From the NCBI RefSeq assembly GCF_003726095.1, contig NZ_CP026031.1, forward strand, positions 2,170,001-2,234,000: DNA of 64,000 nt, written 5' to 3'. Below the pieces are notes generated by a model. It was not told the DNA's origin. It was given only the letters and a program-made list of their open reading frames with translations, and ran no database searches. Positions 32,330 through 64,000 of this stretch are shown here, in pieces; the first letter of the stretch is position 1, and every line of letters starts with the position of its first letter. This DNA comes from Niallia circulans (lineage in GTDB: Bacteria > Bacillota > Bacilli > Bacillales > Cytobacillaceae). The translations under genes and the position numbers were made by a program.

Positions 32330-32402
32330 TATAGATTCCCTCCTATGCATATGTCCATATAGTCTATGTTCACACTGCAAAATGGTTATCATTCTATTCA
32401 AA

Positions 32403-46590: not shown

Positions 46591-46758
46591 AAATGTATCT
46601 CCCTTTCTGAAACTAATGCAATATTATAAAGTAGGTAGATGTTCTCCTCTTTGTAATTTCCTTTAAATGTTACTTATCTATATTTTGTCATGTTTAGACA
46701 TAAATAGCCAAAAAATCATAAATTATATTATAGCTTATATCTACAAAAAAGAACAGTA

Positions 46759-47442
46759 TCATACATACCCTTTTTCTTTTAAGCTGATAAATTTATTTTC
46801 CCCAATTATGATATGATCTAGCAGATCAATACCAATTATTTTTCCACATTCCACTAATCTTTTTGTCACTTCAATATCCTCTCTGCTTGGGGATGGATCG
46901 CCTGATGGATGATTGTGAAGACAAATGATAGAAGCTGCAGATCTTCTAAATGCTTCTTTATATACTTCTCTAGGGTGGACGATACTAGCATTTAAACTAC
47001 CAATAAAAATGACTTGCTTATGCATGACTTGATTCTTAGTGTTTAAATATAGACAGACGAAATGCTCCTGAGTTAGAAATCTCATTTCATTCATCATATA
47101 TTTGGCAGCATCCTCTGGTGATCGAATACAATATCGATCGGTAAATTCTAAATTGGAAACACGTCTCCCTAATTCAATTGCTGCCATCAATTGAATCGCT
47201 TTTGCCGTTCCAATTCCTTTCATTTCTTTTAACTCATCAAGACTTGCATCCTTCAATAAGCGAAGTCCATCAAAATGGACTAAAAGTTTGTTCGCTAATG
47301 TTAATACAGATTCATTTTTGGAACCTGTTTGAATCAAGATAGCAAGCAGTTCATGATTTGCTAAACTTTTTGGTCCCTGTTTCATAAAACGTTCTCTTGG
47401 TCGTTCATCATTTGGAAAATCTCTTATTAATAGTGAATCCAT
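46759..47442 (-). CDS. radC: RadC-family JAB/MPN domain protein
   Basis: A 227-residue protein with an N-terminal helix-hairpin-helix (DELKEMKGIGTAKAIQLMAA near 70) and a JAB metalloprotease-like domain whose metal site is CLHNHPSGDPSPSREDIEV near 175. Once named for DNA repair; the biochemical role is unsettled. Located between maf and mreB as in B. subtilis. GGGAGG precedes the ATG. Confidence 0.94.
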   Translation of the reverse strand: MDSLLIRDFPNDERPRERFMKQGPKSLANHELLAILIQTGSKNESVLTLANKLLVHFDGLRLLKDASLDELKEMKGIGTAKAIQLMAAIELGRRVSNLEFTDRYCIRSPEDAAKYMMNEMRFLTQEHFVCLYLNTKNQVMHKQVIFIGSLNASIVHPREVYKEAFRRSAASIICLHNHPSGDPSPSREDIEVTKRLVECGKIIGIDLLDHIIIGENKFISLKEKGYV

Positions 47443-47502
47443 TCTTTCTTAGTTCCTCCCTATCATTTGATTTTGGGAAGAAAAGAATAAGGGACCTTTG
47501 AA

Positions 47503-48081
47503 TTATTTAGGCATATTGAAGCCTTTCGCTTTCAATTCGCGTACCGTTCGAGAAATCGGAAGACCGACTACGGTGAAATAATCTCCTTTAATTTCTTTCA
47601 CGAGCGTTCTGCCTACTCCTTGAATTCCATACGCACCTGCTTTATCAAATGGTTCCCCGGTGTCTAAATAATCGTGTATTTCTTCATCTGTTAATTCCCA
47701 AAATAACACGTCTGTTTTTTCATAAAATGTGGAACATATTCCATTTGCCATAATGGCGACACCAGTGTAGACAGAATGCGTTTTGCCAGAAAGTTCTCTT
47801 AACATACGAAACGCTTCCCCATGCGAAGCAGGCTTGCCTAATATCGCACCATTAAGATATACTATCGTATCAGCACCTAGTATATATGGATACTGTTCAT
47901 CAGCATAAATTGCTTCAACTTTTCGTCTCGCTAATTCCATGACAATTTCATTAGGAGAAAGAGAAGGATCGAAACTTTCATCTACATTACTACTGGATAT
48001 TACAAATGGTATTTGGAGTTCTTCAAGGAGCTCTTTTCGTCGAGGAGAAGAAGAGGCCAATATGAGGGTTTGCTTTAACAT
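47503..48081 (-). CDS. maf: Nucleotide pyrophosphatase Maf
   Basis: A 192-residue house-cleaning pyrophosphatase acting on dTTP, UTP or modified nucleotides. The substrate loop [15 protein letters not shown] is at residues 8-22, catalytic region [18 protein letters not shown] near 70, and [10 protein letters not shown] near 150. B. subtilis Maf also affects septum formation. GTAGGTAGGTG gives the ribosome site. Confidence 0.95.
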
Positions 48082-48307
48082 GATTACACCTACCTACTAT
48101 TTCAAATTGTGAGATACAGATTAATCCTATCAAAGAATTCGCCGATATACAATTTTGAAACGAAAAATTTTATATAATAGTAAATAAAATGTAATATGAC
48201 GAAATTTGTAGAAATATTTATACAATTAATACAAAAGATATTTTTGCCTATTTAGTTGTATTGCGGCAGATAATCTATACTCTAGTCAATCGTTCGAAGC
48301 TGTATAG

Positions 48308-48328
48308 ATGGGGTACCATTCCCCATCA
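48308..48328. repeat. Short GC-rich inverted repeat upstream of maf terminator region
   Basis: GATGGGG and CCCCATC, perfect 7-bp arms with a seven-base spacer. It lies in the maf-spoIIB gap (48082-48390). No flanking T-run; possible protein site or minor hairpin. The rest of the gap shows nothing. Confidence 0.5.
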
Positions 48329-48345
48329 ACTTTCCTTTGAAACAA

Positions 48346-48382
48346 AGAAAAGGAGCCACCGTTTAATAAACAGTGCGCTCCC
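48346..48382 (-). terminator. Terminator downstream of spoIIB
   Basis: Minus-strand GGAGC/GCTCC with inner CAC/GTG and GTTT/AAAC pairing, then TTTTC. Confidence 0.75.
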
Positions 48383-48390
48383 CTAATCCA

Positions 48391-49491
48391 TTATAATGAG
48401 ACATATACAGCTAAATAGTCTAGCAATTTCTGGTGAACTTCCGCTATTTCGTTCTCGCTGCTCTTTTCCTTTAATTTTATGGTAAGCTCACCACCTTCTA
48501 AAAGATAGGCTGCCATTTTTTTTACTTTTTCATTAGTAAACTTGGCTGTTTTTTTCTCGTCGACTAGAGAGAGTGCCTTCTCTAGCTTATTTTTATCCTC
48601 CGTTGCAATAGATTGATCAAATTGAACACTTGTTACCATTTGCAGAATGGCAGAATAGATAGCGGACGATCCTTCAATAATCTCCTTCTCTTCTTTCGAG
48701 ACATTTTTCACTTCATTGCCACTAAACACCATCTCTTTTGCGTAAGTATCTTTTACTTGTTTCTGCCATGCTTTCGCATTCTCCAAATTACTCACAACAC
48801 CAACAAGAAGAAACTGCTGCTTATCTATCGGAAGAATTTGACTCTTCTTCCCTGCATCTGTTAGCTTCTGCTGCTCGCTTTTCGCACGCTCTACATTAGA
48901 GAAAACTCCCTTTTGAAGGACATATGTAGTAATATCCGGTTTGGTAGCACTTTCTGTTGTCGATACAGCTTGTCCACTTTTAGGTTTATCGGAAGAATCA
49001 TTGGCCAAAGCTGCTATTTTTCCATTTGTAGTGTTGCTTTGATCATTGCTTACCATGTTTAATAAAATAAATCCAAAGCTAGTGCCTAAGATGACAGCAA
49101 AAAATACAGCAAAGAAAATAGAAGCAATTACTTCCTTTGGCAACCGCTTTTTCTTTCCCTCTTTCTCTTTTTTGCCTTTTTTGAATGGTTGCTTGTCCTT
49201 TTTATTTACAGACGATTGAAAGCTAAATATACTTTTTTCTTTATTTTTTGCTGGAATTTCCTCTGATGCGGGCAAAATCCAATCAAAGCTTTCCTCAAAT
49301 TCAGCTTCTTGTCCAGCCGCAGACTCTTCTTTAAAAATATCCTGTTCTTTTCCTTCGCTATTTTGATCCTTATAAAAAACAGAAGGTTCACTCCGCTCCA
49401 CCATGTCGTCATTGTCCTTATTTTGGAATGGACGGTCATTTCCGTTGATCTTAATCGTTATCGTTTTGCGATTCTCCGGTTTTTCATTCAC
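48391..49491 (-). CDS. spoIIB: SpoIIB, engulfment localisation protein with SPOR domain
   Basis: A protein of about 366 residues. A charged cytosolic part (1-120) precedes one helix (VIASIFFAVFFAVILGTSFG), then a SPOR domain (about 190-265: YVLQKGVFSNVERAKSEQQK ... FLLVGVVSNLENA) that binds denuded peptidoglycan at the septum. In B. subtilis SpoIIB helps start engulfment. GTG 49491 is preferred because GGGGG lies nine bases upstream; ATG 49512 would add seven residues. The pilus cluster begins directly upstream on the same strand, where B. subtilis has comC. Confidence 0.85.
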   Translation of the reverse strand: MNEKPENRKTITIKINGNDRPFQNKDNDDMVERSEPSVFYKDQNSEGKEQDIFKEESAAGQEAEFEESFDWILPASEEIPAKNKEKSIFSFQSSVNKKDKQPFKKGKKEKEGKKKRLPKEVIASIFFAVFFAVILGTSFGFILLNMVSNDQSNTTNGKIAALANDSSDKPKSGQAVSTTESATKPDITTYVLQKGVFSNVERAKSEQQKLTDAGKKSQILPIDKQQFLLVGVVSNLENAKAWQKQVKDTYAKEMVFSGNEVKNVSKEEKEIIEGSSAIYSAILQMVTSVQFDQSIATEDKNKLEKALSLVDEKKTAKFTNEKVKKMAAYLLEGGELTIKLKEKSSENEIAEVHQKLLDYLAVYVSL

Positions 49492-49540
49492 TCGTCCTAC
49501 CCCCATTTCCATTTATTTCGTTAATCCTATCATACAAGCA

Positions 49541-49574
49541 AAAAAAAATAACAAGACTTTTGTCGTCTTGTTAT
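49541..49574 (-). terminator. Terminator at the end of the pilus operon
   Basis: A perfect 10-bp stem (49548-49557 with 49565-49574) followed by T8 on the minus strand. Confidence 0.9.
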
Positions 49575-49592
49575 AGAATGATTTCGTCAAAT

Positions 49593-50048
49593 TCAGTTGT
49601 TGTTAGACACAATCTGACTTGGAGAAAGATCGTTATATTGTATAGCTTGGTCTACTCCCTCTTCTTCTGTACAAAGCTTCCGATTTTCCCCTTTTAAACA
49701 AACAGCAATCGCTATGTTATTTTGAATGGTTACATAGCTTTTATCTGATGGAACTAACTCTCGATCTGTATCTGGATCATGAAACGTGCCCATATACCCA
49801 CTTTCAACAAGTTCAAAGTAAGTGATTCTTTCCTTTGCATCTGCTCCACTAGTTGTCGCTTCCTTAATATAAAAATCAGTAGCTTCCTTCATATTCCATG
49901 CGTTTGCAATAAAAGCTCGATCGCGCATATCTCCTATTACTTTTAAGACAGAGGGAATCGCTATTGCAGCTATTATTCCAAGTATGACAATCACAGCAAG
50001 CAATTCCATCAAGGTTAATCCCTTATTATTTAGTCTAGTTTTTAGCAT
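49593..50048 (-). CDS. Type IV pilin-like protein with cysteine pair
   Basis: A 151-residue prepilin. The leader ends NNKG, followed by LTLMELLAVIVILGII, the class III signal with Glu at position 5. The globular part has a YNDLSPSQI tail and two close cysteines in AVCLKGENRKLC, a likely disulfide loop like the D-region of pilins. ATG 50048 lies after AAGGTGGG. It is the last gene of the operon, after pilO. Probably a second or minor pilin rather than the main subunit. Confidence 0.85.
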   Translation of the reverse strand: MLKTRLNNKGLTLMELLAVIVILGIIAAIAIPSVLKVIGDMRDRAFIANAWNMKEATDFYIKEATTSGADAKERITYFELVESGYMGTFHDPDTDRELVPSDKSYVTIQNNIAIAVCLKGENRKLCTEEEGVDQAIQYNDLSPSQIVSNNN

Positions 50049-50078
50049 CGCTAGACCCACCTTCTTTTTTCAGTTCCT

Positions 50079-50843
50079 CTATTGATCTTTACTATTTTCT
50101 AATGTTCCAGTATCAAAAGGATTCTTTCGTTCAGATACCTTTGGTGGATCCAATTGCGGAAGATCCTCCATTAAATCAGTTAATGTCGGATAATAATATA
50201 CAGACACTGTTAATTCAAAATCTATTTGTTGATCACTTTCTTCAACGGCGATGATTTCTTTAGGTCCAGTAATATTTAAAGAATCAACGGTCATAATACG
50301 CTGAGAGGATTGGATTTTTTCTAAGAATTTTTCTAGTTCAAAATAAGTAGCTGCCTCTCCTATCATATTGATTGTTGTTTGATGGATACCACTTGGGAGG
50401 ATGATTTCTTCTGTATTTTTCTTTTCATCTGTTTCCCTATTTTCTTGCTTGTTGGCATCATCGATTGCTTCATCTGCTGTAGAAACTTCTCCATCTGTAA
50501 CATTTTCATCAACGTCAGATCCATTCACACTTATTTCTAGTATATTCGAATCAGAAATAATTTCTGCTTTTTCTATTTCAAGAAGCGCCTGTTCTAATAA
50601 GCGTTTAACCGGTACCTTTTTCTGCAACTCGATAGTATTCGTACTTGTTTCTGAACCAGTCGATTTTAGTTTGGATTCCAAAATATCCGCTTGCTGCTCT
50701 GTCATTTGCAGCTCCGTTTTTTTCATAGCTAGTTCATTATTTAAAGGCATTAAATAGAAATAATAACTATATATCGCTCCTAATGCGAGGAAAATAATGC
50801 TAAATGCAAACCATATCATTGGCTTATGATCGCTTAATTTCAT
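50079..50843 (-). CDS. pilO: Type IV pilus inner-membrane protein PilO-like
   Basis: A 254-residue bitopic protein: one N-terminal helix (FAFSIIFLALGAIYSYYFYL), a coiled coil (about 35-65), an acidic linker (about 100-140, rich in Asp/Glu/Asn) and a C-terminal ferredoxin-like domain with EAATYFELEKFLEKIQSSQR. This is the PilO layout. It overlaps pilN by four bases. The acidic insert between coil and domain is longer than in classical PilO. Confidence 0.8.
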   Translation of the reverse strand: MKLSDHKPMIWFAFSIIFLALGAIYSYYFYLMPLNNELAMKKTELQMTEQQADILESKLKSTGSETSTNTIELQKKVPVKRLLEQALLEIEKAEIISDSNILEISVNGSDVDENVTDGEVSTADEAIDDANKQENRETDEKKNTEEIILPSGIHQTTINMIGEAATYFELEKFLEKIQSSQRIMTVDSLNITGPKEIIAVEESDQQIDFELTVSVYYYPTLTDLMEDLPQLDPPKVSERKNPFDTGTLENSKDQ

Positions 50844-51490
50844 GGGGAATCCTCCCCTTTTTCATTTTTGTCTTTTTGCTTTTCCATTTCATCTCGCAGC
50901 TTTGCTTTATTTAGGACAAATTCGTAGCTTGCAAAATAGCGAGGTTCCACTTCTGATTGTTTTAAAATATCAATGGCTTGATTTACTTGTTCGCTAATTT
51001 TATTTTCAAGTACATCGGTTGATTTTCCTTCCGTCAAAAGCGCCTCGTCTATCCAGCTAATTTCAAGCAAAGAATTTAAATAATAGGCAGCATCACTTTT
51101 TGTATCAAACTGGACAATCATGTTTGTCTTATGGTCATCAGATACCTTTAGTTCCTGAATAAAACCTCTTTCCGGCAAGTTCTTTGTTAATTCCTGCAGA
51201 AAAAGAACATAATCCATTGATTGATTATTCGCCCAACTGATTGCTGATTCAAGGCTTTGGACAGACTGTGAACTTTTGTACCTCTCTAACTTCTGATTGT
51301 AAGTATCAACCAGATTAGTCGTCATTTTTAACGAGTTTTCTGTTGCCGTTAATTCAGCTTTTTTAGTCATATACTGCCAGATAAATAAGCCTATTAATAA
51401 AAAAGTAATCAAGAAAGCTAGGATAATCCAAAGCAATTGCGACTTTCTCTTTGGTTCTTTTTTAGGAAGGAGGTTAATTTCTACTAACAT
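50840..51490 (-). CDS. pilN: Type IV pilus assembly protein PilN
   Basis: A 216-residue bitopic protein. The short cytosolic N-terminus MLVEINLLPKKEP contains the INLLP motif that docks into PilM; one helix follows (LWIILAFLITFLLIGLFIW), then a coiled coil and an external domain. The order pilM-pilN-pilO with tight or overlapping junctions forms the alignment subcomplex between the motor and the wall. Confidence 0.88.
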   Translation of the reverse strand: MLVEINLLPKKEPKRKSQLLWIILAFLITFLLIGLFIWQYMTKKAELTATENSLKMTTNLVDTYNQKLERYKSSQSVQSLESAISWANNQSMDYVLFLQELTKNLPERGFIQELKVSDDHKTNMIVQFDTKSDAAYYLNSLLEISWIDEALLTEGKSTDVLENKISEQVNQAIDILKQSEVEPRYFASYEFVLNKAKLRDEMEKQKDKNEKGEDSP

Positions 51491-51492
51491 TT

Positions 51493-52485
51493 TTACACCT
51501 CTTTTAATCCTAAACCAATGTTTAAAAGGAAACTCGATGGTATAGGCTTATTAGAAACTGATTGGTTCACTTTTAATTCAAAAACAGGAATTTCAAAACG
51601 ATTCACCATATTTTCAATAATGGCAGAAAGCCACGGATGATCACCTGTTACTACTAATTTTGTTACTAGTTTGTCACCCTTATTTAAAGTATAGCGATAG
51701 AAGCTCATCACTTTTTCTAATTCATTATAAACATCTTCAAGACCATTCCAAACTTCAGTATGATCGCCAGTAAATGTCAGCTTTTCTTGCAGTAGTAACT
51801 CATCTGTCGTAACGGTCCAGTGGTCTTCCTCCATCTCTTGTAATAAATGTCTCATCAATAAAGGATAATGTTCTTCAAAAATACTTGCGTTCACTGTTTT
51901 AATATCGATTTCAACTAACATGATAATGTCATTGTCTTCGACTTTTTCAGAGCGATAGAAATAGCGATATAGTGCTAACGCAGATATATCAGCAGATTGT
52001 GGCGATAATTTCGCCTCTTCTAATAAATCCGCATACTGGGCGACACTTTCTTCTGGTGAAGCAAATAAAATAATTTGCTGCTTATTTTTTTCTTTTGCTT
52101 TCAATAGATAATAATCAAATACAGGATCCTCGAATGGCAAATGAATCGATGTTCCAAGTTCCATATACAAGTACCCTTTAATTTCATCTTCGCTTACATC
52201 TTCCGGAATAGGGAGCTTTCGAATGACAATGGAGGAGTCAGGAACTAGAAAACGAACTTGTTTTTTTGATAGTTTCCATTCATCCACACATTCTTCTAAA
52301 ATCCATAAAAAATTCTCGACATCTTGAATCACTCCATCATGAATTAATCCAGGCGGCAAATAGCGTTCTCCAAAATTTTGCACTACAGCATCTTGGGAAT
52401 TCTTCATTTCCACAAATCGTATTACATGATCTTTTATGGTTAAGTTAACTACTTTATTTTTTCCAAAATTAAAATTTAATGCCAT
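51493..52485 (-). CDS. pilM: Type IV pilus assembly protein PilM
   Basis: A 330-residue actin/FtsA-like cytosolic protein. Features are the start NFNFGKNKVVNLTIKDHVI, KQVRFLVPDSSIVIRKLPIP near 75, and IPSSFLLNIGLGL at the end. The DIG/ DxGG loops of actin folds are weakened (MLVEIDIKTVNA). It should bind the PilN tail. It precedes pilN with two bases between, so the two are coupled. Confidence 0.87.
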   Translation of the reverse strand: MALNFNFGKNKVVNLTIKDHVIRFVEMKNSQDAVVQNFGERYLPPGLIHDGVIQDVENFLWILEECVDEWKLSKKQVRFLVPDSSIVIRKLPIPEDVSEDEIKGYLYMELGTSIHLPFEDPVFDYYLLKAKEKNKQQIILFASPEESVAQYADLLEEAKLSPQSADISALALYRYFYRSEKVEDNDIIMLVEIDIKTVNASIFEEHYPLLMRHLLQEMEEDHWTVTTDELLLQEKLTFTGDHTEVWNGLEDVYNELEKVMSFYRYTLNKGDKLVTKLVVTGDHPWLSAIIENMVNRFEIPVFELKVNQSVSNKPIPSSFLLNIGLGLKEV

Positions 52486-52552
52486 ATTGAAAACTCCTTA
52501 TTGTTACTAGATGGAGGAAGAAAAATTACTCCCCAAAAAGGGTATCAGCCTT

Positions 52553-53299
52553 TTAAAGAAAAATACTTAGATACCATTGGATAATCTGATTACCAAAATA
52601 ATAGGTTATAAGAGTTCCTAAGGCTATGTACGGACCGAAAGGAATTGGTTGTTTCTTTTTTGATTTACCAATAGCCATTCCGATAATACCGCCAATTGTC
52701 CCTAGAAAGGTCGAAAGAAAAAGGGAGACAAGGACTAGCTTAGTCCCTAAAACAAAGCCAATTACCGCAAAAAGCTTTATATCTCCTCCCCCCATTCCTC
52801 CTTTTGATACAATCGCAATAACTAGAAGAAGCGTAAAACCAACCGCTGCCCCCAGCAAAGAACTCCACCAGGGATGCAAAAGAATAAAGAATCGTTCGAT
52901 CATAAAAACAATCGAAAAAAACAACAGCACTTTATCTGGGATAATCATGTATTTTAAATCAGAAACAGTAATAATGATAAATAAGGAAATAAGTGTCCAG
53001 GAAACAAACAGCTCAGAACTCCAGCCAAGCAGAAGCGGACTAACGACAAAGAGAATACCTGTCAAAAGCTCAAATATAGGATAGAAGGGGGAAATCGATG
53101 CTTTACAGCATTTTGATTTCCCCCTTAATAATACATAGCTTAAAACTGGTACAAGTTCCATCGCTGATAACGTGCGTCCACAGCTTGAACAATGAGATCT
53201 CGGCCTAACAATCGATACATTTAATGGCACCCTTAAACCTACTACGTTATAGAATGAGCCAAGGGTTATGCCGTATAGGAAGATTAGTAGGTAGATCAT
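52553..53299 (-). CDS. pilD: Prepilin peptidase (PilD/ComC)
   Basis: A 248-residue membrane aspartyl protease that cleaves and usually methylates prepilins. Asp sites are in VSDLKYMIIPDK near 115 and GMGGGDIKL near 168. The N-terminal domain starts GSFYNVVGLRVP. The zinc region has the first CxxC (HCSSCG), but the second pair reads SKCCKASIS instead of CxxCxxxIS. In B. subtilis the orthologue comC sits at this chromosomal place. It would process all pilins of both operons. Confidence 0.92.
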   Translation of the reverse strand: MIYLLIFLYGITLGSFYNVVGLRVPLNVSIVRPRSHCSSCGRTLSAMELVPVLSYVLLRGKSKCCKASISPFYPIFELLTGILFVVSPLLLGWSSELFVSWTLISLFIIITVSDLKYMIIPDKVLLFFSIVFMIERFFILLHPWWSSLLGAAVGFTLLLVIAIVSKGGMGGGDIKLFAVIGFVLGTKLVLVSLFLSTFLGTIGGIIGMAIGKSKKKQPIPFGPYIALGTLITYYFGNQIIQWYLSIFL

Positions 53300-53330: not shown

Positions 53331-53774
53331 TCAACTACCTGTGGTGCTAGGTATTGTTTTTTGCCCTTTTTTTGATTTATTAATTTGGTCAATTGTAGCA
53401 TTGGTAAATGTGATATTTATTTTTCCTGCCTCAACATTAGTAGCGTTCAAACCAAATGTTGTACCGCCTTCTCCTACAGTAACAGTATACTCACCAAATT
53501 CTTTTAAATTTACACCACTAACATAACTTGAAAGCTCCTCATCACTAATGGTACCACCTTTTGCCATATCATTACCCGCAACATAGTTTTTAGCTGCATT
53601 AAGAATTGTAATCGCATCAGCCTTAACTGCATCTTCTTTTGATTTTTGAATAATCCCTGAAATACTAGGAATCGCAATCGCTGCAATAATTCCCAAAATA
53701 ACAATAACTGCTAATAACTCGATAAGTGTTAATCCTTTTTCATTTTTAATACGTTGCTTAATTAATTGACGCAT
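53331..53774 (-). CDS. Major type IV pilin candidate
   Basis: A 147-residue prepilin. Leader MRQLIKQRIKNEKG, then LTLIELLAVIVILGIIAAIA with Glu5 and a classical hydrophobic helix. The globular part (about 40-147) is small and rich in Gly, Thr, Asn and Lys, with no cysteine. It has a strong ribosome site (AAGGAG) and a 104-base gap upstream with a possible TATAAT (53822-53827), which may boost its expression over the rest of the operon. Most likely the main fibre subunit. Confidence 0.87.
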   Translation of the reverse strand: MRQLIKQRIKNEKGLTLIELLAVIVILGIIAAIAIPSISGIIQKSKEDAVKADAITILNAAKNYVAGNDMAKGGTISDEELSSYVSGVNLKEFGEYTVTVGEGGTTFGLNATNVEAGKINITFTNATIDQINKSKKGQKTIPSTTGS

Positions 53775-53878: not shown

Positions 53879-55084
53879 TTATTGGACATGATTAAAAATC
53901 TCAAACATTGGTATTAGGATAGATGACACAATTGTTCCAACAATGCTTGCAAGAAAAACAATCATAATAGGCTCAATCAAGGACTTTAGTCGATCTGTTG
54001 CTGTATCGACTTCTTTTTCATAGAAGTCAGCTACCTTTGCAAGCATGTCATCTAATGATCCTGTTTCTTCCCCTATTGCTATCATCTGCGTCACAAGTGG
54101 CGGAAACACCCAATGGGCTTTCATTGGCACAGTTAATGACTGACCTTGTTCAAGCGCACCTCTTGATTGAACAAGGACTTTTGCCATTACTTCATTTTCA
54201 ATAACTCTTTCGACAATCGAAATGGCCTGTAAGATGGGAACAGAGCTTGAAAATAGCGAACTAAGTGTGCGGGTCATTCTCGCAATCGCTGCTTTCTGCA
54301 GAATTTTTCCAAAAATCGGCACTCTTAATAGAAAATAATCGAGATAATACTTCGATGCTTTATTATTTCGTATAACCATGATGGCAATAATAAATGCGAT
54401 CAGCAACAAAAATACTAGCCACCAAAATTTTTGCATAAAGCTGCTTGCCGATAGAACAAATTGTGTAATGGCAGGTAACTCACTATCAAAATCAGCAAAC
54501 ATATCCACAAACGTTGGTACAACACTCACCAATAAAAATATAACAACTATAAAAGCAATAACGGCAATCGCAATCGGATATGTTAAGGCTGAAATAATTT
54601 TTTGTTTTGTGTAATGCTGTTTTTCAAAATGATTGGCTAATCTTTCTAAAGTCTCATCCATACTCCCTGTAGCTTCTCCTGCGCGAATCATATTTACAAA
54701 CATACTGGAGAAAACCTTTCTATGTTTCGCTGCTGCTGTGGATAAAGGATTCCCATCTTTTAAATCTTGTTCTACCACTAATAAAGCCTTCCGCAATGCC
54801 TTACTTTCTGTCTGCTCAGCAAGTATCGCAGTTGCATCCACTACTGATATACCTGCTTTTATCAGGGTAGCGAACTGGCGCAAATAAATGACAAAGTCTT
54901 GGAGCTTTACAGGACTGCCAAATGTAATTTCCTTTGTTAAAAGAGTTTCAGGAACTTCATTTATTTCTGTTATCTTAATCCCTTTTTCTTTTAACTGCAC
55001 GATCGCTTCTCTTTTGGATGAAGCTGTTACTATCCCTTTTTTTGTTCCTTTTCGATCTCTTCCCGTATATTTATAGCGAGCCAT
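53879..55084 (-). CDS. pilC: Type IV pilus platform protein PilC
   Basis: A 401-residue inner-membrane platform of the GspF/PilC family. Two repeated T2SSF domains (about 65-190 and 265-395) are seen, each with a conserved RAGEATGSMDETLERLA or AIGEETGSLDDMLAKVA helix. Three transmembrane helices (about 165-190, 215-240, 370-395). It starts three bases after the pilT stop. Confidence 0.95.
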   Translation of the reverse strand: MARYKYTGRDRKGTKKGIVTASSKREAIVQLKEKGIKITEINEVPETLLTKEITFGSPVKLQDFVIYLRQFATLIKAGISVVDATAILAEQTESKALRKALLVVEQDLKDGNPLSTAAAKHRKVFSSMFVNMIRAGEATGSMDETLERLANHFEKQHYTKQKIISALTYPIAIAVIAFIVVIFLLVSVVPTFVDMFADFDSELPAITQFVLSASSFMQKFWWLVFLLLIAFIIAIMVIRNNKASKYYLDYFLLRVPIFGKILQKAAIARMTRTLSSLFSSSVPILQAISIVERVIENEVMAKVLVQSRGALEQGQSLTVPMKAHWVFPPLVTQMIAIGEETGSLDDMLAKVADFYEKEVDTATDRLKSLIEPIMIVFLASIVGTIVSSILIPMFEIFNHVQ

Positions 55085-55086
55085 AT

Positions 55087-56127
55087 TTATTGCTCCTTTT
55101 CTTGTAGATAAGGAAGTGCAGCTTCTCTTAATACAGCACCAGCGTGAACTAATTCTTTTACATTGCTTTCCAATGTATGCATTCCAGCTGCTTTTGAGGT
55201 TTGCATAATATTTAAAATCTGATGAATTTTTTCATTACGAATCAAATTGGCTACAGCTGAATTGTTCACAAGAATCTCTGTTGCTGAAACCCTTCCCGAT
55301 TTATCTGGGGTTGGGAATAGGCGTTGAGCTACAATGCTTACTAAAACAGAAGCCAACTGGATTCGAATTTGATCCTGCTGCGTGGGTGGAAAAACGTCAA
55401 TAATTCGGTTAATGGTTGCTGGAGCACTCGATGTATGGAGTGTTCCCAGTACCAAATGCCCCGTTTCCGCTGCTGTAATGGCTGTTTGAATTGTTTCTAA
55501 ATCACGCATTTCTCCAACAAGAATCACATCTGGATCTTGGCGCAAAGATGCTCGTAAGCCATTGGCAAAATTATTGGTATCAAACCCAACTTCTCGTTGG
55601 TCAATAATACACTTGCCATGCTTATGCAAATACTCAATCGGATCCTCTAACGTGATAATATGCTTGCGCATAGTTTCGTTCATATAGGCAATCATCGCCG
55701 CTAATGTCGTTGATTTGCCACTGCCTGTCGGTCCTGTAATTAAAATAAGCCCCTGAGGCCTTTCAGCAATTTTCTTTATAATAGCAGGAAGCTTTAAATC
55801 ATCTAGACTAGGGATCGATGTTGGTACAACTCGAATAGCTAAAGCAATGCATGCTCTTTGCTTATACACATTAACCCTAAATCTAGACACTCCTTTTAAA
55901 CTGTATGAGAAATCAAGTTCACCACGATCTTGGAAGACTTCCCATAACTTCTCTGGAACCATTGTTCTTGCCATTATTTCTGTATCATTTGGTTCTAGAT
56001 TATTTTTGCCATACCGCTTTAAATCTCCATTTATTCTCATAACAGGAGGAACACCAACTGTAAGATGAATATCTGATGCTTTTAATTCAAAGCCTACTCT
56101 CAATAAGTAATCAATACTATGGTTCAA
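55087..56127 (-). CDS. pilT: Type IV pilus retraction ATPase PilT
   Basis: A 346-residue hexameric ATPase that powers pilus retraction. Walker A GPTGSGKSTTLAAMI is near residue 130, the Asp box and His box are intact (LEDPIEYLH near 160; TGHLVLGTLHTSSAPATINR near 215), and the retraction signature AIRVVPTSIPSL is present near 93. A dedicated PilT implies dynamic pili for twitching or uptake, beyond the ComG pseudopilus. Confidence 0.95.
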   Translation of the reverse strand: MNHSIDYLLRVGFELKASDIHLTVGVPPVMRINGDLKRYGKNNLEPNDTEIMARTMVPEKLWEVFQDRGELDFSYSLKGVSRFRVNVYKQRACIALAIRVVPTSIPSLDDLKLPAIIKKIAERPQGLILITGPTGSGKSTTLAAMIAYMNETMRKHIITLEDPIEYLHKHGKCIIDQREVGFDTNNFANGLRASLRQDPDVILVGEMRDLETIQTAITAAETGHLVLGTLHTSSAPATINRIIDVFPPTQQDQIRIQLASVLVSIVAQRLFPTPDKSGRVSATEILVNNSAVANLIRNEKIHQILNIMQTSKAAGMHTLESNVKELVHAGAVLREAALPYLQEKEQ

Positions 56128-56138
56128 TAATGTCCCTC

Positions 56139-57803
56139 CTAATCAGGGATAGCTACTCTTAATACTTCTTCTGTAGTAGTAATTCCTTGCTTCACCTTTA
56201 ATAATCCATCATCAATTAGGAAGATGGTTTTTGCTTTCATTGCAAGATCTCGTAATCTCGAAAAAGATTCGCCATTCATAATGACTTTTCTCATTTCCTC
56301 ATTGATAACTAGCACTTCATGAATAGCTACTCTTCCTTTATAACCTGTCATATTACAAGAAGCACAACCTTTTCCTCTAACAACTTTTTCGATTGTTAGA
56401 CCCCGTTTTGCGAAGATTTCTTTTTCTCTTACTGTTGCACTATGAACTTGTCCACAGTCTCTGCATACTTTACGAACAAGCCTCTGTGCTACAATTCCTG
56501 TTACAGATGAAGCCACTAAAAATGGCTCTACCCCCATGTCTAACAGTCTTGTAACAGAGCCTAGTGAATCATTTGTATGCAAGGTGCTTAAAACAAGGTG
56601 ACCAGTTAAAGAAGCACGCACGGCTATCTCTGCTGTTTCTTTATCTCGTATCTCACCGACCATGATTACATTAGGATCCTGACGTAATATTGCCCGTAAC
56701 CCTTTTGCAAATGTCATCCCTACATTCGTATTTACTTGAATTTGGTTAATTCCTTCTAATTGATACTCAACCGGATCCTCTACTGTAATAATATTGACTT
56801 CTTCACTGTTTAAACGGTTTAGCGCTGCATAGAGTGTGGAGGATTTACCAGATCCTGTAGGACCTGTAATAAGTATAATCCCGGTTGGTTTCTCAATAAG
56901 TTTTGTAAATCTAGCTAAATTCACTTTATTAAAACCTAGTTTATCTAAATCATTTAGTGTACTTCCAAGATCCAAAATTCGCATAACTACCTTTTCTCCA
57001 AAAATAGTTGGAAGTGTAGATACACGGAGATCAATGGGATGAAAGTCCAAATTGAACTTCATTCTTCCATCTTGCGGGATGCGGTGCTCTGTAATATCCA
57101 AGTTTGCCATTATCTTCAACCGTGCTATCAATACACTTTGCATATGTTTTGGCAAAACTCTTTCTATACGCAATACACCATCAATCCGATAACGGATTAC
57201 CACTTTCGTTTCTTGAGGGTCCACATGTATATCACTTGCCTTTAGGGTCGCAGCATTCGATAATATCTGATTGACTAAGCGGACAATCGGCGTATCTTGT
57301 TGTTCAACCATGCTGTCGCTCACATCTTCGCCAACTGCGCCATTATCAGATAGCAACTCTTCAAACCCTTCGTCCATATCATAATATTTATTGATTGCAC
57401 GCAAAATATCATCTTTTGTCGCAATAGCTGTCTCGATTTGAAAACCAGTAGATAAGCGCAAATCATCTATGGTATAAAAATCCATTGGATCAGCCATTGC
57501 CACATATAACTTTTCGCCTTCTTTTTTTAGCGGAATAATTAACTGTCTTTTCGCTGTTTCCTTTGAAACGATCGTAAATAGCTTAGGATCAAAGGGATAG
57601 CGATACAAACTAACATGAGGAATACCTAATTGAAATTCTAATACCTCGATCAATTGTTGTTCTGTAATATAACCCTTTTGAAGCAGACTATCTCCAAGCC
57701 TTTGATCTGGATGCTTATCTTTAAGTGCTTGCTGCAATTGATCTTCTGTCAACAAGCCAGCCTCCACCAACAAATCTCCTAAACGCTTTCGTATTTGTTT
57801 CAT
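56139..57803 (-). CDS. pilB: Type IV pilus assembly ATPase PilB
   Basis: A 554-residue extension ATPase. An MshEN/T2SSE N-terminal domain (1-150, RLGDSLLQKGYITEQQLIEV) that in relatives binds cyclic di-GMP precedes the ATPase domain: Walker A GPTGSGKSSTLYAAL near residue 320, Walker B VIMVGEIRDKETAEIA near 385, His box LTGHLVLSTLHTND. The zinc cysteines CRDCG and CASCN are near 455 and 490. The RLGDxLLxxG repeat could allow second-messenger control; that is inferred. Confidence 0.95.
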   Translation of the reverse strand: MKQIRKRLGDLLVEAGLLTEDQLQQALKDKHPDQRLGDSLLQKGYITEQQLIEVLEFQLGIPHVSLYRYPFDPKLFTIVSKETAKRQLIIPLKKEGEKLYVAMADPMDFYTIDDLRLSTGFQIETAIATKDDILRAINKYYDMDEGFEELLSDNGAVGEDVSDSMVEQQDTPIVRLVNQILSNAATLKASDIHVDPQETKVVIRYRIDGVLRIERVLPKHMQSVLIARLKIMANLDITEHRIPQDGRMKFNLDFHPIDLRVSTLPTIFGEKVVMRILDLGSTLNDLDKLGFNKVNLARFTKLIEKPTGIILITGPTGSGKSSTLYAALNRLNSEEVNIITVEDPVEYQLEGINQIQVNTNVGMTFAKGLRAILRQDPNVIMVGEIRDKETAEIAVRASLTGHLVLSTLHTNDSLGSVTRLLDMGVEPFLVASSVTGIVAQRLVRKVCRDCGQVHSATVREKEIFAKRGLTIEKVVRGKGCASCNMTGYKGRVAIHEVLVINEEMRKVIMNGESFSRLRDLAMKAKTIFLIDDGLLKVKQGITTTEEVLRVAIPD

Positions 57804-57830: not shown

Positions 57831-59183
57831 TTATTTTTCTATTTCTGCTTGTGGAGTCTCTTCCTTATTCTCTTTCAAATCCTGATTGTTTGATTCTGTC
57901 TGTGAAGGATTCACTGTCGTTTGATTGTTACTATCCTTCTCTTCCTCTTTGATGTTTTCTTCAGAATCTGAAGGATCATTTAAATCGGTTGAATCTTCGA
58001 CATTATCTGTATCAATCACTGTTTCCTGTTCTTTTATTAATCCAGAAGCAACTACTTTATTGATTGGAGGATAAAAGTCTTCACTCATTAAATCTTTTTT
58101 CACTTCGACTCCATCTTCATTTTTGGCTAAACGATAGACTTTAATTAAAAGTCCATCTGTTCCTTCTGTGATGGTTCTATATTCATTAAACTCTAATAAA
58201 GAATCAAATTGGATGACCGTTTTTGGCTTAAATGCTTCCTGATTGGAGAGAACAACATCATATTTAAATAAAAACGGAACCCCGACTACCGAAGCATATA
58301 ATTTATTGCCAGACATTTTGAATTGAAGCTGATAAGCAGCAGCATTAGGATTATAAAACCGGTAATCCATTTTTTTAGATTGATTGATTTTCGCTTCATA
58401 TCCTAATGGAGCATAGTTAGGCAATTGATTACTTATAAACCGCTCAGTAATAGTAAAATTAGTTGCTAAGACTAGCTGATGAAAAGCTGTCGCAACCATA
58501 CTTAAGGTGGTATCTGAATAGGAATCTGTCTGTTTTCCCATTATATCTAGCAACGAGACCGTCGCTTCTTGCCCCACTTCAATACTTGGAAATTGCTTTA
58601 CCCATTTTGCAACATTTTTTTTGTTTTCCTGAACGTCTAATGTAGTATCTACTAAGATTACTTCTTCTTCCTTTTGGCTGACTAAATAATCTTGGAGCGC
58701 AAGTTCGTGATTTCCTTTGTCTAACTGGGAAGCTATCGCTATTAAAGAATCACTCCATTTATTGACGTAAAAAACATCTTCTTCTACGAGATAGGGAGAT
58801 ATTGAATAAAGTAATCCGATTAAATCATCTTGATTTAACGATACAATCAATGCATTGTCTGTGCCCTGATGGATCTTTTCTAAGCTTTCTTGGAATTGGA
58901 ATGTAAATAAATCAGTAGCAAAGTCAATTGTTTTTTCTTTATAATTTAATTTAATGGAGACTGCCTGAATCCATTCTTCTTGAGAATCCTTCAATGCTTT
59001 TAAAGCTTCTTCTAAAGACATTCCAGAGATATCTATTCCACCCACAGTTGTACCCTCTTCATACCCTTGCTTGGTCGAAAAAATCCTTTCATATGCCTTT
59101 ACACCAAAATGCGAAAAACTAAAAATAAATGCAGTTGTAATGGCTATAGCTATAAATAGCTTTACAGCTTGAACGTTTTTCAT
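57831..59183 (-). CDS. VanW-like exported protein in pilus operon
   Basis: A 450-residue protein with an N-terminal membrane helix (about 7-30), YoaR-like repeats (GTTVGGIDISGMSLEEALKA), a VanW-like segment (about 215-330, VATAFHQLVLATNFTITERF ... PLGYEAKI ... YRFYNPNAAAY) and an acidic Glu/Asn/Ser tail (390-450). The GGGxCQxS core of VanW is replaced by DSYSDTTLSMV, so any activity is doubtful. ATG 59183 follows AAAGGAG; a longer frame overlaps the PRC gene. Being second from pilB suggests a wall-facing pilus role. Confidence 0.75.
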   Translation of the reverse strand: MKNVQAVKLFIAIAITTAFIFSFSHFGVKAYERIFSTKQGYEEGTTVGGIDISGMSLEEALKALKDSQEEWIQAVSIKLNYKEKTIDFATDLFTFQFQESLEKIHQGTDNALIVSLNQDDLIGLLYSISPYLVEEDVFYVNKWSDSLIAIASQLDKGNHELALQDYLVSQKEEEVILVDTTLDVQENKKNVAKWVKQFPSIEVGQEATVSLLDIMGKQTDSYSDTTLSMVATAFHQLVLATNFTITERFISNQLPNYAPLGYEAKINQSKKMDYRFYNPNAAAYQLQFKMSGNKLYASVVGVPFLFKYDVVLSNQEAFKPKTVIQFDSLLEFNEYRTITEGTDGLLIKVYRLAKNEDGVEVKKDLMSEDFYPPINKVVASGLIKEQETVIDTDNVEDSTDLNDPSDSEENIKEEEKDSNNQTTVNPSQTESNNQDLKENKEETPQAEIEK

Positions 59184-59202
59184 GAAGTAATGACTCCTTT
59201 TG

Positions 59203-59937
59203 TTATGCATTCACACTCATGGATAAATCAATTACTACACTCGGTCCCGCGTTTTGCGCTTTCTCAATATCCTCTAGTGCTAATATCGAACCCTTTGCAA
59301 CAATCAATTCACCATCTGCTGCATAAATATCTTTTGTTACTTGTTTATTTAGCAATAATTCTCTTTGTTTTTCTTTTAACCCATTAAGACCAGCTTCATT
59401 TTCTCGCTCCACTTCTTCTAACGCTTGGATTAAGTGGTCATTTGAAGATACAGCTTCTTCTTGAACAAAATTAGGTGTAGCTACTTCTTCTTTCACAATA
59501 ATGATATCTTTTCCATAGGTGATAACAGCTTCGGATGAAATGACTGATTCTTGTTCCTCCAAAACAAGTCCAATGATTTCACCTGTCTCTTCATTCATTT
59601 GATACTCTGTCACTTTACCTACAAGATCTCCTTTTCTCGTAATAACATTTGTATCAATAATCGCGATTTTTTTGCTTGCCAGCTCACTAGCAATAGGAAT
59701 CTGTGTTAAATCAATGATAGAGTTTGCACTTTCGATCGTTACAGCATATTCCCCTACACCAATCACCTTTTTAAAAGGGATTGCTTGAATACTCTCTTGC
59801 CATTCTTCTTGCTCTAATGTTAAAAAATCCACAAAACCTTTTTCTGGATTGATGATTAAAGACTGCACATTTCCTTCTTGTTGTCCGTTAGAAATGCTGA
59901 TAATCGGTAAACCTTTAAACTGTGTGCTAATTTTCAT
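59203..59937 (-). CDS. PRC-barrel domain protein in pilus operon
   Basis: A 244-residue cytosolic protein with two PRC-barrel-like repeats: residues 5-75 (LPIISISNGQQEGNVQSLI, then FVDFLTLEQEEW) and about 88-155 (KIAIIDTNVITRKGDLVGKV, then GLVLEEQE). The C-terminal 80 residues are helical, with RELLLNKQVTKDIYAADGEL and KGSILALEDIEKAQ, resembling a further small beta unit. PRC barrels bind RNA or proteins in other systems. Spacing of 17 bases to the upstream gene shows cotranscription. No known pilus protein matches. Confidence 0.78.
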   Translation of the reverse strand: MKISTQFKGLPIISISNGQQEGNVQSLIINPEKGFVDFLTLEQEEWQESIQAIPFKKVIGVGEYAVTIESANSIIDLTQIPIASELASKKIAIIDTNVITRKGDLVGKVTEYQMNEETGEIIGLVLEEQESVISSEAVITYGKDIIIVKEEVATPNFVQEEAVSSNDHLIQALEEVERENEAGLNGLKEKQRELLLNKQVTKDIYAADGELIVAKGSILALEDIEKAQNAGPSVVIDLSMSVNA

Positions 59938-59954
59938 AATCTATCTCCCCTATA

Positions 59955-61163
59955 CTATCTATTCTTCAGATACTTTTCTTCCATAAATTTGATTTGTTCC
60001 AATACAATCGGTTGTTCCATAAATTTTTCCCTAAGTGAATATATTAAACTTTCTAATTTATCCTTTTCGTTATTTTGAACATATGCATCGATTAACAAAG
60101 CAGAATAAGCAAAATATTCATTTAAAGGAATAGGCTTCTTCAAACACAGAGTTAATACAGTCTCAAATTCTTCCATATCCATGGAATTCTTCAACATTAC
60201 TAATTGTGTTAAAGTATTGTTAATTATCTTATGAGCTAATCCACTTACCACATTTTCGTGTTTGTCGTCATCTGATCCGATTTGATTTTCTTGGCTTTGA
60301 TTCTGGGATACTTCTGCTTGTTCACCCAACATTTCAATCGCAGAAAACTCTTGCGATTCCTCTATATGTTCACTTATAGCAGTCATTTCTTCTGATAGGA
60401 TTGTTTTTTCCTCTTCCGTTAAATCATTGTCTTCTATATTATTCCAGATCTGTTCCTGTTCCATCTTTTCCACTGACACTGCAACTTCAGCGTCCTCGTT
60501 AATAGAAAAAGAGATTTCCTCTATTTGATCCTCTTCGGCAATTTCCTCATTTGCTTCATTTGCAGTGGAAAGATCGTTTTCTTCCAGCATTTTTTCAATT
60601 TCAGCTAGATAGTTTGTCTCCGCTGGTTCTTTATCTATTTCTTTATCGATAACTTCTTCCTCTATGGAAAGTGAAAATTCTTCATCCAGTTCAACAACTT
60701 CTAACTGTTCCATCACATCAAGGTTTATGTCTATGCTCTCGACTGTTTCCTCCTGAATGATATCCTCTTCATTTGTTAAAATACCTTCTCGGTTTACCTC
60801 TGGGACATAGGTAATGATATCCCCTTCTTGTTTTACGTCACTCTGGGTAGTTTTTATAGGCTTTATTTCTCGTGGTTCTTGTCTCTTCTCTATAACAGAT
60901 TCTTCTACTTCTTCTGGCATGACAAAAAGTACTGTTGACCAATTTTTCAACAAAAGATAGCTTGCACTAATAAGGAACAACAGCATGATTAAAATACTTT
61001 GCCAGAAAGAAAAGAGCTCCCTTGAAAGTAATCCGATAGCAGAAATACAAAACGCTAATCCGATAATAGTAAACTTCCCTTGATTCGAAAGTCCTAAAGG
61101 CAAGATATACAGAATAGGCACAACAAAAATCAAGGACAAAAGCGCCAAAATATATACACTCAT
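59955..61163 (-). CDS. Membrane protein with acidic linker and helical C-terminus, first gene of pilus operon
   Basis: A 402-residue protein not assigned to a family. Three hydrophobic helices occupy residues 1-75 (ALLSLIFVVPILYILPLGL; TIIGLAFCISAIGLLSREL; SILIMLLFLISASYLLL). A very acidic region (about 80-310) has dozens of Glu and Asp. The last 90 residues are helical, with a TPR-like pattern (FETVLTLCLKKPIPLNEYFAYSALLIDAYVQNNEKDKLESLI, residues split). GGAGGTG gives a strong start. It leads the operon and is divergent from the minor pilins. Confidence 0.72.
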   Translation of the reverse strand: MSVYILALLSLIFVVPILYILPLGLSNQGKFTIIGLAFCISAIGLLSRELFSFWQSILIMLLFLISASYLLLKNWSTVLFVMPEEVEESVIEKRQEPREIKPIKTTQSDVKQEGDIITYVPEVNREGILTNEEDIIQEETVESIDINLDVMEQLEVVELDEEFSLSIEEEVIDKEIDKEPAETNYLAEIEKMLEENDLSTANEANEEIAEEDQIEEISFSINEDAEVAVSVEKMEQEQIWNNIEDNDLTEEEKTILSEEMTAISEHIEESQEFSAIEMLGEQAEVSQNQSQENQIGSDDDKHENVVSGLAHKIINNTLTQLVMLKNSMDMEEFETVLTLCLKKPIPLNEYFAYSALLIDAYVQNNEKDKLESLIYSLREKFMEQPIVLEQIKFMEEKYLKNR

Positions 61164-61319: not shown

Positions 61320-61814
61320 ATGAAAATTTCAAAGCTGATATCTAGTTCCAAAGGATTGACGTTAATAGAGGTCTTATTGTCTCTTACTATCCTTAGTATA
61401 ATCATTTTAGGTATAATGAACTTTTTTACTCAGGCTTATTCCTATACAAATCTTAATCAGAAAAAAACTGCTGGTATAAATGTTGCTAGAAATGCTTTGA
61501 CATACATGGAACAAACTACCCAAGAAGACTCCTTTATCAGCATAAAAAATAGAATAGACCATAATAAGGAAGCAACAGGTGAGCTGTTCATCTGCAATAA
61601 TGAGTATAAAGTAATCTGGAACAAAGATAATCAAGCTTCCTGTACACCTATTAAAATTAATAATATTGATTATCATGTAACCATTAAGCCTGTTTTAGAT
61701 AAAAATTACAGCAATTTTTTCATTCCTTTAACGGTAACTGTTACATGGAATGTAAACAAAAAAGAGTACAATACTTCCATGGAGGGAGCCATCAAAAGTG
61801 AGGATCTTCGATGA
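61320..61814 (+). CDS. Minor prepilin, PilV/GspI-like
   Basis: A 164-residue prepilin. The leader ends SSSKG, followed by LTLIEVLLSLTILSIIILG with Glu5 present. The globular region has two cysteines (FICNNEY and QASCTPIK), 22 residues apart. It ends with a beta-rich section. The stop overlaps the start of the next gene by 17 bases. The fast overlap and order suggest a minor pilin of the tip complex. Confidence 0.85.
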   Translation: MKISKLISSSKGLTLIEVLLSLTILSIIILGIMNFFTQAYSYTNLNQKKTAGINVARNALTYMEQTTQEDSFISIKNRIDHNKEATGELFICNNEYKVIWNKDNQASCTPIKINNIDYHVTIKPVLDKNYSNFFIPLTVTVTWNVNKKEYNTSMEGAIKSEDLR

Positions 61815-62379
61815 AAAAGGGATAACACTATATGAACTATTGGCAACAATCACTATTCTTGCGATCGTTTTGCCGGTCATCTATGGTGTCTTTCAGTCTG
61901 GGTTATCTTTATATAATAAAATTCAGATAGAAGGACAAATCCGCGACGATGCAGATTATGCCATTTCTATGATGATGAACTCGTTTAACAGTATCCCTTA
62001 TGACTATGTGACGATAGAAGGTGATTCGAAAATCAGCTTCTATGATACAGAAAAGACTGTATTTGAAAAGAATACTAAAGAGAATTCTTCTTTTTATACT
62101 TATGAGAAAGAAAAAATAACATCAGAGAATGCAAAAGTAAGAAGTATTGAATTTGTTGATCAGCAGCTTAAAAGCGAAACGATTACTGCTGTTTCGATCA
62201 ATAATCAAATTCTAGAGGGGAGCGGGGATTTTACTGGTTCTAAAATAAGGTTGTCCTGTAGTAAAACGGCCCAAGAAGATAAAAATCGTTGCCTTCATGG
62301 GTTAATCTATATCACTTTTGTCATTGATCAAGCACGATTAAATCGACCTTTAACTTTAGAAAGTCAATTTGGCTTTTAA
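61798..62379 (+). CDS. Minor prepilin, PilW/GspJ-like
   Basis: A 193-residue prepilin starting at GTG 61798 (GGAGGGAG upstream, inside the previous gene). A very short leader, MRIFDEKG, precedes ITLYELLATITILAIVLPV with Glu5. The globular part has two cysteines in LSCSKTAQEDKNRC. The length and position second of three match PilW/GspJ. It is followed 14 bases later by the large third pilin. Confidence 0.85.
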   Translation: MRIFDEKGITLYELLATITILAIVLPVIYGVFQSGLSLYNKIQIEGQIRDDADYAISMMMNSFNSIPYDYVTIEGDSKISFYDTEKTVFEKNTKENSSFYTYEKEKITSENAKVRSIEFVDQQLKSETITAVSINNQILEGSGDFTGSKIRLSCSKTAQEDKNRCLHGLIYITFVIDQARLNRPLTLESQFGF

Positions 62380-62393
62380 GGAGAATACCATTT

Positions 62394-64000
62394 ATGTTCA
62401 ATTGGAATCAAAAAGGGAACGCCCTAATTACCGTATTATTAATTTCATTAGTTTTCACCACAATAGGTCTTGCAATTGTAGCATCTAGTATAAGCAGTAC
62501 AAAAAGGGTAGAGACGAGAGAATCAGATATCAGTATTACGTACGAGAGCAAAAAAGTACTCGAAGAAATAACGTACGAAATGGCTAATGCCTTACAATCC
62601 TTACCGTTAGATTATAAGCAGATCGATAACCAATATATCGTGAGTGATTCTTTTGATACACAGCTTGCATCCAATGTTATTATGCCAACATTAAATAAAA
62701 TTTTAGCAAATCAACCGTATAATGAAGCGATTAGTTGTCTTAGTGTAGTGGATTTAAGCGCTGCTACTAAAGTAGAGATTCCCTCTCATAAAGCGTGCTC
62801 TAAAAATACTTACGATTCGGATAGCACTTATTCGATTGATCGAGGATTGGATTTCACCAGAGTGCTAGAAATTATTCTTGTAACCAATAACCCTAACGAA
62901 ACAGAAGGAGCTATCACGAGAACTTTAAAGAAGCGAGTAATTTTATCTCCCCTTCCTAGCTTTTTGAAGTATGCGCTAGGATCTTATTCTGAACAGGATG
63001 ATGAAGGACTATTTATTAACGGATCACCTAATGTTAATGGCAATATTTATGCAAATCAGCTTCAAATTAATGATCATGCGAAATACCAGCTAAAAAATGG
63101 GAGTAGACAAGAAAAATCATCTCTTCCCCCTTCTATTACCGGTAATATTTATAGTAGTTCTGCAAACTTATTACCAGTGCTGAAAGACAAGAATTTCTAT
63201 AAAGGAGAAGTACCTTCTTTAAATCATGATAGTCAATTTATTAATATTGATTACAACCGTACTTTTATCCAACGAATGGATACTATGTTAAGAACAGATG
63301 ATAATTTGAATAGTATAGCTATTGGAGATATAAGTGAAACAGCTAATTTTCCAAGTCTTCTTCAGCACAAAGTGGCTAGTATGGTGAACGATCAACCAAA
63401 CAGTGCTGCCTTGATTGAAAATGTCCCAGAACAAGAAGCACCTTCTTCTGTATTAGGAGATTCTCTCAAACGACTCTCCAATAGTTTTCAGATTAAGAGT
63501 GACAATCATCCATTAGATTTCAAGAACAAAGTAAGCATCAATGGAGATACCGTTATTAACAGCAGCAATTATCCTATTACGTTCGACAAAGATTTGGTTG
63601 TTAACGGTGATTTATATTTAGTAAGCAACAACCAATTAAAGTTAGCGGATAATATTTATGTTTCGGGTGATTTACATCTAATCAATTTTGATGGTGAAAT
63701 GGATTTACAAGGAAATCTATTTGTTGCAGGTGATTTAAATATCGAGTCTGCTGCTGACAATAAAAGTAATCCTCATAACGGTATCAGCATCAACGGAGAT
63801 ATTCTTACAGGGAAGTCTATCCATATCCGTCCTTTAAATACAACCATTTCTTTAAATAGCAATATGATCAGTCTAGATTCATTTACTATAAACGGAGATG
63901 AAAAAGGAGAAGAGTCTGGAGAAAATGATATAGTCAAAATTAACTCTGTTGTTTACACATTAAATGAAAGCTTCGTTTCCAACATTAATATTCTTGGCTT
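62394..64000 (+). CDS. Large minor pilin, PilX/GspK-like (3' end cut by window edge)
   Basis: At least 535 residues; the frame is open to the window end. The N-terminus MFNWNQKGNALITVLLISLV has a prepilin-type leader, but position 5 after the cleavage Gly is Thr instead of Glu, the mark of GspK/PilX tip pilins. Two cysteines (SCLSVV and KACSKN) lie near 127 and 144. From about residue 380 there are repeats of the type VxGDL (VSINGDTVI, LVVNGDLYLV, IYVSGDLHLI, LFVAGDLNI, ISINGDILTG), a beta-helix or bactofilin-like ladder. AAGGAG precedes the ATG. Confidence 0.85.
   Translation, partial: MFNWNQKGNALITVLLISLVFTTIGLAIVASSISSTKRVETRESDISITYESKKVLEEITYEMANALQSLPLDYKQIDNQYIVSDSFDTQLASNVIMPTLNKILANQPYNEAISCLSVVDLSAATKVEIPSHKACSKNTYDSDSTYSIDRGLDFTRVLEIILVTNNPNETEGAITRTLKKRVILSPLPSFLKYALGSYSEQDDEGLFINGSPNVNGNIYANQLQINDHAKYQLKNGSRQEKSSLPPSITGNIYSSSANLLPVLKDKNFYKGEVPSLNHDSQFINIDYNRTFIQRMDTMLRTDDNLNSIAIGDISETANFPSLLQHKVASMVNDQPNSAALIENVPEQEAPSSVLGDSLKRLSNSFQIKSDNHPLDFKNKVSINGDTVINSSNYPITFDKDLVVNGDLYLVSNNQLKLADNIYVSGDLHLINFDGEMDLQGNLFVAGDLNIESAADNKSNPHNGISINGDILTGKSIHIRPLNTTISLNSNMISLDSFTINGDEKGEESGENDIVKINSVVYTLNESFVSNINILG

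Follow-up and report, generated by a model that had tools for sequence, protein, structure and literature searches.

How are type IV pili held in a thick cell wall, and how do they pass through it, without a secretin? A portion of PMC6916266 presents this as an open question, and in it Pelicic 2019 speculates that the crossing of peptidoglycan by pili is perhaps aided by a large monoderm PilO. The window (the whole stretch of 64,000 nucleotides analysed here, from a genome of 5.18 Mb) raises the same question with three uncharacterised genes at the head of a pilus operon. With a probability of about one half, these genes encode a trans-envelope scaffold that serves the type IVa pilus in Bacillaceae, and we infer an anchoring role for it.

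The order on the minus strand is 59955-61163, 59203-59937 and 57831-59180 (the three genes), pilB (extension ATPase, 56139..57803), pilT (retraction ATPase, 55087..56127), pilC (platform protein, 53879..55084, Pfam T2SSF 204.6 bits), a major pilin candidate (53331..53774, prepilin motif), a prepilin peptidase gene that we take to be pilD/comC (52553..53299), pilM (51493..52485, Pfam PilM_2 65.6 bits), pilN (50840..51490) and pilO (50079..50843, 254 aa, no extra domain). Downstream of pilO, on the same strand, are a second pilin (49593..50060), a SPOR-domain gene and then genes that we take to be maf, radC and mreB. From 61320 three pilin-like genes run in the opposite direction on the plus strand: a PilV-like minor pilin (61320..61814, N_methyl 25.4 bits), another minor pilin (61798..62379, sub-threshold N_methyl 15.3 bits) and a PilX-like minor pilin that continues past the window edge (62394..63998, PilX_N 11.4 bits, sub-threshold). 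Hence pilB, pilC, the peptidase, pilins and pilM/N/O are clustered as in a monoderm type IVa pilus operon, with pilN and pilO assigned by position and sub-threshold matches (PilN and PilO/T2SSM, respectively) and the peptidase and pilins by eye. The three genes and pilB lie on one strand and are separated by 17, 22 and 27 bp, values that assume a VanW gene start reset to 59180. The earlier note had placed the three genes at the head of the pilus operon with short gaps, and these gaps, together with the linkage to pilB in a 121-genome family described below, bear this out. Scanning for promoters and terminators yielded fewer sites than in shuffled sequence. The pil cluster fills the region pilD/comC - SPOR gene - maf - radC - mreB (45568-53299); B. 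subtilis presumably has comC and spoIIB alone in the corresponding comC - maf - radC - mreB region, and may have kept its comC from a pil operon of this kind. The pilB-C, peptidase and pilM-N core resembles that of Gram-positive pil operons as given in part of Imam 2011 (PMC3244431; Bacillus sp. NRRL B-14911), and no description of the three genes upstream of pilB was met in that part. A keyword search of the literature gave nothing joining VanW with PRC-barrel, nor VanW with G5 domain and peptidoglycan.

To describe the linkage with pilB, a PRC profile, a VanW profile and the PilB sequence were placed on each of the 121 genomes of the family. One VanW match per genome was kept (91 genomes). 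Set aside were 3 matches that did not reach 1e-4 and, in 5 genomes, extra matches to the N-terminal part of a gene already counted. Between one and three stops interrupt 8 of the 91, and the profile, built from close members, favours finding close members (a broad VanW profile finds three VanW places in the window's genome). PRC matched in 41 genomes; the matches in 33, down to 5.8e-35, were kept, and those in the remaining 8 were weak and partial. Full-length PilB, after removal of ComGA-like matches, was of type one in 91 genomes and of a second type in 10. VanW lay directly 5' of full-length pilB in 91/91 genomes bearing it, PRC lay directly 5' of VanW in 33/33, and both were absent from all 20 genomes without full-length pilB. 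The sole first-type PilB without VanW (genome G007) is at a contig end, and no VanW match was present in 9 of the 10 genomes with the second type. When named loci were instead collected by their VanW (the best 80 of 103 confirmed), PilB was likewise the next gene in 79 of the 80, the exception (L245) having one 3-TM acidic gene between the two, and PRC was present in 40 of these 80. These genes are thereby named as candidates for holding pili in a thick wall, their pilB link being invariant in a single bacterial family.

A further 80 loci were fetched by position around PilB, many chosen outside the family; 78 hold PilB, 44 of these hold VanW, and the remaining 34 gave no VanW match. Therefore, as in the second-type family genomes, many Bacilli have type IV pilus loci without VanW. 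For 18 of the 34 loci that lack VanW, the genes immediately upstream of pilB were inspected for a substitute wall protein, an idea then rejected: the neighbours were by eye FolC/MurC/ValS, pilin-like or PilO-like, and 4 loci had none on the strand. A large PilO as a stand-in for VanW was rejected as well: the PilO-like protein has 577, 469 and 252 aa in three VanW-less loci, which makes no rule, and no VanW or G5 match was found in the PilO-like genes of the VanW-less loci checked. Pil loci of the Bacillaceae type are also filed under the names Chryseobacterium sp. ISL-80 and Paenibacillus sp. BSR1-1 (L220, L238), record titles that may be wrong.

The gene next to pilB (57831..59180, minus strand, 449 aa) encodes a predicted exported wall protein, according to Pfam, a structural model and fold matches, with a TM anchor, a putative YoaR/PG_binding_4-like domain, a VanW domain without the GGGxCQ loop, a G5 domain and an acidic disordered tail, in this order. 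The VanW domain (PF04294) scores 30.8 bits (cut-off 27) and spans profile positions 58-129 of 130 only; the G5 domain scores 34.2 bits (cut-off 23), with fold matches to HP0197, SasG, Aap and RpfB. In the predicted model (mean pLDDT 82, 291 residues >= 90), G5 and PG-binding-like folds are among the structure matches, and the VanW domain proper has no fold match among those listed, an absence that should not be read as a sign of a new fold. The suggestion of an exported, YoaR-like VanW protein thus agrees with the predicted export and with modelled folds of wall-binding type. The protein shares the order TM, putative PG_binding_4-like domain, VanW, G5 with the YoaR/VanW/G5 wall proteins of Bacillota and differs from them in the motif: among 117 distinct pil-linked VanW proteins the GGGxCQ Cys is lost in 116 and CQ is kept in one (L150), a loop-like sequence without Cys remaining, by pattern, in 8 or 10 and the others being loop-less. 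The motif, which generic VanW members also show, is kept in 13 of 15 stand-alone VanW proteins, in one of them as GGVCQ, and the Cys is lost in 2; the two Bacilli copies apart from pil genes are divided, L170 having the motif and L093 lacking it. By these raw counts, in which kinship is ignored, pilus linkage appears to go with loss of the VanW motif, and a catalytic role of the VanW domain, unsupported with the motif lost, was set aside. Within 57831-58010, the region that encodes the tail, relatives have an LWGKPNE-like conserved peptide that ends the VanW tails in 45/117; it is absent in the window's genome and near Niallia, and showed no association with PRC presence (median p 1).

The module also occurs away from pil genes. 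In Bacilli, loci L093 (genome G128, in which it is a second trio) and L170 (genome G140) have the trio with VanW at the maf-radC place and no pil genes; in L253 and L254 the third gene encodes an exported protein (in L253 a plain PG_binding_4, 32 bits, cut-off 22.1), and L255-L259 have the membrane gene and PRC apart from pilB. Eight of the nine genomes with such copies have a pilB match at 1e-75, G268 having none. In a sample across the phylum, 73 of 219 genomes had a PRC match at 1e-20, and 18 of these loci, picked among the stronger matches, were mapped: a gene with two to four TM near its start is directly upstream of PRC in 17 (the eighteenth, L299, has a 10-TM gene and was not counted), VanW is directly downstream in 15, and no pil genes were matched near PRC in any of the 18. 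Most of the upstream membrane proteins have, by eye, a TPR-like end; of 4 that were tested, 1 matched Pfam TPR, at E 0.01. Profile comparison of Bacilli with other Bacillota gave a modest match of the membrane parts (probability 82, E 1.1e-5); because the tails gave E 0.076, their homology rests on a TPR-like look and not on sequence. A module is present without a pilB match at 1e-90 in G425 and G411 (both mapped), G473 (by coordinates) and G271 (PRC alone). Since the three-gene order is found without nearby pil genes, and in some genomes without a pilB match, the module is not pilus-specific in origin, and it is probably older than the link to pili. The earlier placing of the three genes in the pilus operon holds in the family studied, and in other Bacillota the three-gene order also occurs stand-alone.

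These copies bear on a first rival explanation, in which the trio does general work in the envelope or in sporulation, as a housekeeping module that merely shares a promoter with the pil operon and resides in the folC - SPOR gene/maf/radC/mreB region even without pil genes. The trios beside maf-radC in G140 and G128 and the phylum copies with no pil gene near them favour it, as do the phylum counts, by which PRC and pilB are not associated (pilB in 24 of the 28 genomes with PRC at 1e-42 or better, the window's included, against 151/191, Fisher p 0.61) and a weak match of the PRC protein to the YlmC/YmxH sporulation model (21.1 bits, cut-off 44.2). Such a module should, however, outlast the loss of pil genes, and neither VanW nor PRC is left in the family genomes without full-length pilB; moreover, pil-linked VanW lacks the motif that most stand-alone copies retain. 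We therefore regard this explanation as unlikely.

The first gene (59955-61163, minus strand) encodes 402 aa in three parts. Residues 1-80 (60924..61163) are a membrane domain with three TM helices, from AlphaFold2 helices (residues 2-20, 27-50 and 53-74) and conservation in relatives. Because K+R are enriched in loop 1 (mean 2.0) and after TM3 (2.3) relative to loop 2 (0.4; 41 rows), we predict an N-out/C-in topology. Residues 84-302 (60258..60914) are a disordered acidic arm, mostly with pLDDT < 50, with 73 D/E against 13 K/R across residues 84-303, and residues 303-402 (59958..60257) are a C-terminal helical tail, putatively TPR-like. The membrane protein with a huge acidic arm that had been noted at this place is indeed encoded here, and the topology predicts the arm to be cytosolic. 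Within the arm, a short YLAEIEKML-like motif is present in 45 of 108 pil-linked membrane proteins versus 0.04% of shuffled arms and is possibly a docking peptide. A same-strand gene with at least two TM is upstream of pilB in 108 of the 117 distinct VanW-pil loci (90 with profile support) and missing in 9. The protein has zero Pfam or NCBIfam matches at E <= 1.

The middle gene (59203..59937, minus strand, 244 aa) encodes a PRC-barrel protein (Pfam PRC 44.2 bits, cut-off 21.2, in 2 stretches; family alignment) with two barrel stretches and a C-terminal 'GKxVTKDI..GxxLxxxGTVLT' module, and no signal was seen in it, so that it is probably cytosolic. It is like other PRC adaptors (YlmC/YmxH; haloarchaeal CdpB1/CdpB2, as described in part of PMC12186497) in that the PRC barrel is a hypothesised cytosolic adaptor for a membrane protein, and differs in its two barrels, its module resembling the start of an HD-GYP-like protein, its bacterial envelope operon and its putative TPR partner. 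Full-length pilB comes with PRC in 33 of 101 family genomes, and PRC is therefore dispensable: the constant genes of the module are those for the membrane and VanW proteins, and PRC is optional.

Further, the presence of the PRC gene and that of the TPR tail are correlated across loci. We mapped 159 pil loci (78 + 80 + the window; some entered twice via both routes) and left out 46 without a called membrane gene (in L186 it is fused to PRC). In the remaining 113, where a few called membrane genes may be unrelated, PRC and tail were both present in 42 and both absent in 67, with PRC without a tail-profile match in 4 and a tail without PRC in 0; the four are distant and have TPR-like ends, and the two of them that were tested matched Pfam TPR below threshold. 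PRC changed 18 times and the tail 16 on a quick PilB tree of 117 distinct loci, with loci without a called membrane gene scored tail-less. Well-supported branches of this tree gave 12 independent contrasts, in which the tail tracked PRC in 10-11 and opposed it in 0 (sign test p about 0.001). In Peribacillus glennii (L186), tail and PRC form one 767-aa frame, unless this is an assembly error, and the tail profile matches the PRC frame at 9.4e-29. The co-variation is weaker as proof of contact because PRC and tail are adjacent and one deletion can remove both, and locus L231 looks like such a joint deletion. The PRC protein and the TPR tail are nonetheless probable partners by this comparison of loci; the cytosolic adaptor that had been suggested thus gains a likely membrane partner from the co-variation and the fusion, and loses any claim to be required throughout the family.

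A second rival, which we consider still less probable than a housekeeping module, is a c-di-GMP-linked regulator in which the PRC protein and the TPR tail gate PilB and the VanW protein is a minor wall anchor. By eye, the C-terminal PRC module looks like the beginning of a neighbouring HD-GYP-like protein, and HD-GYP-like genes follow the trio, that is PRC-VanW, in L293 and a stand-alone PRC in L290; against this, PRC is missing from 68/101 family genomes with full-length pilB.

In the scaffold that we prefer, the VanW protein would be a wall-bound, non-catalytic clamp outside the membrane with the 3-TM protein as its membrane partner, the acidic arm and its short motif would contact the pilus machine on the PilM/PilB side, and the TPR tail would keep the PRC protein at the cytosolic face, PRC and tail being an optional regulatory or localising extension. 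The scaffold would hold the pilus machine in place, or set its position, where membrane and wall meet, with PilP/PilQ/FimV-type parts as the diderm counterpart. A more specific version, held tentatively, is that the type IVa pilus operon of Bacilli took over an ancient Bacillota trio, that the motif-less VanW clamp replaces the secretin/PilP/FimV layer, and that PRC on the TPR tail is a detachable control arm. A putative contact between PRC and the TPR tail, one naturally fused gene and, in other Gram-positives, a module of the same kind standing alone are now on hand.

In diderms, pilus scaffolds of the FimV/HubP type are membrane proteins linked to type IV pili and the wall; they have an extended acidic region in the cytosol and a TPR-like tail. 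The first-gene protein is likewise linked to pili and, as proposed here, to the wall, and has an acidic arm (cytosolic by prediction) and a putative TPR-like tail; it differs in its three TM helices and in its lack of a Pfam or NCBIfam match; wall binding would sit on the separate VanW protein. Homology to FimV was rejected for want of a library match (LysM, FimV C-terminal model) in libraries that presumably include FimV models, and the likeness is kept as an analogy. A literal wall-crossing conduit, with VanW proteins oligomerising as a ring or bore through peptidoglycan, would suit the PG-binding-like and G5 folds and the short PilO here, given the large monoderm PilO proposed as a crossing aid in part of PMC6916266, but is very improbable, with no hydrolase or ring-forming match in the listed fold matches of the wall domains (part of the model only) and the VanW Cys almost always lost.

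Two minor observations concern the surroundings of the module. Among loci with PilO found, a second pilin after pilO is present in 12/23 with PRC versus 0/37 without (raw counts, kinship ignored). Elsewhere in the window, 30176-32401 encodes a protein that is LysM-like by eye, with long GGFDPGMGGMPQGF-type repeats.
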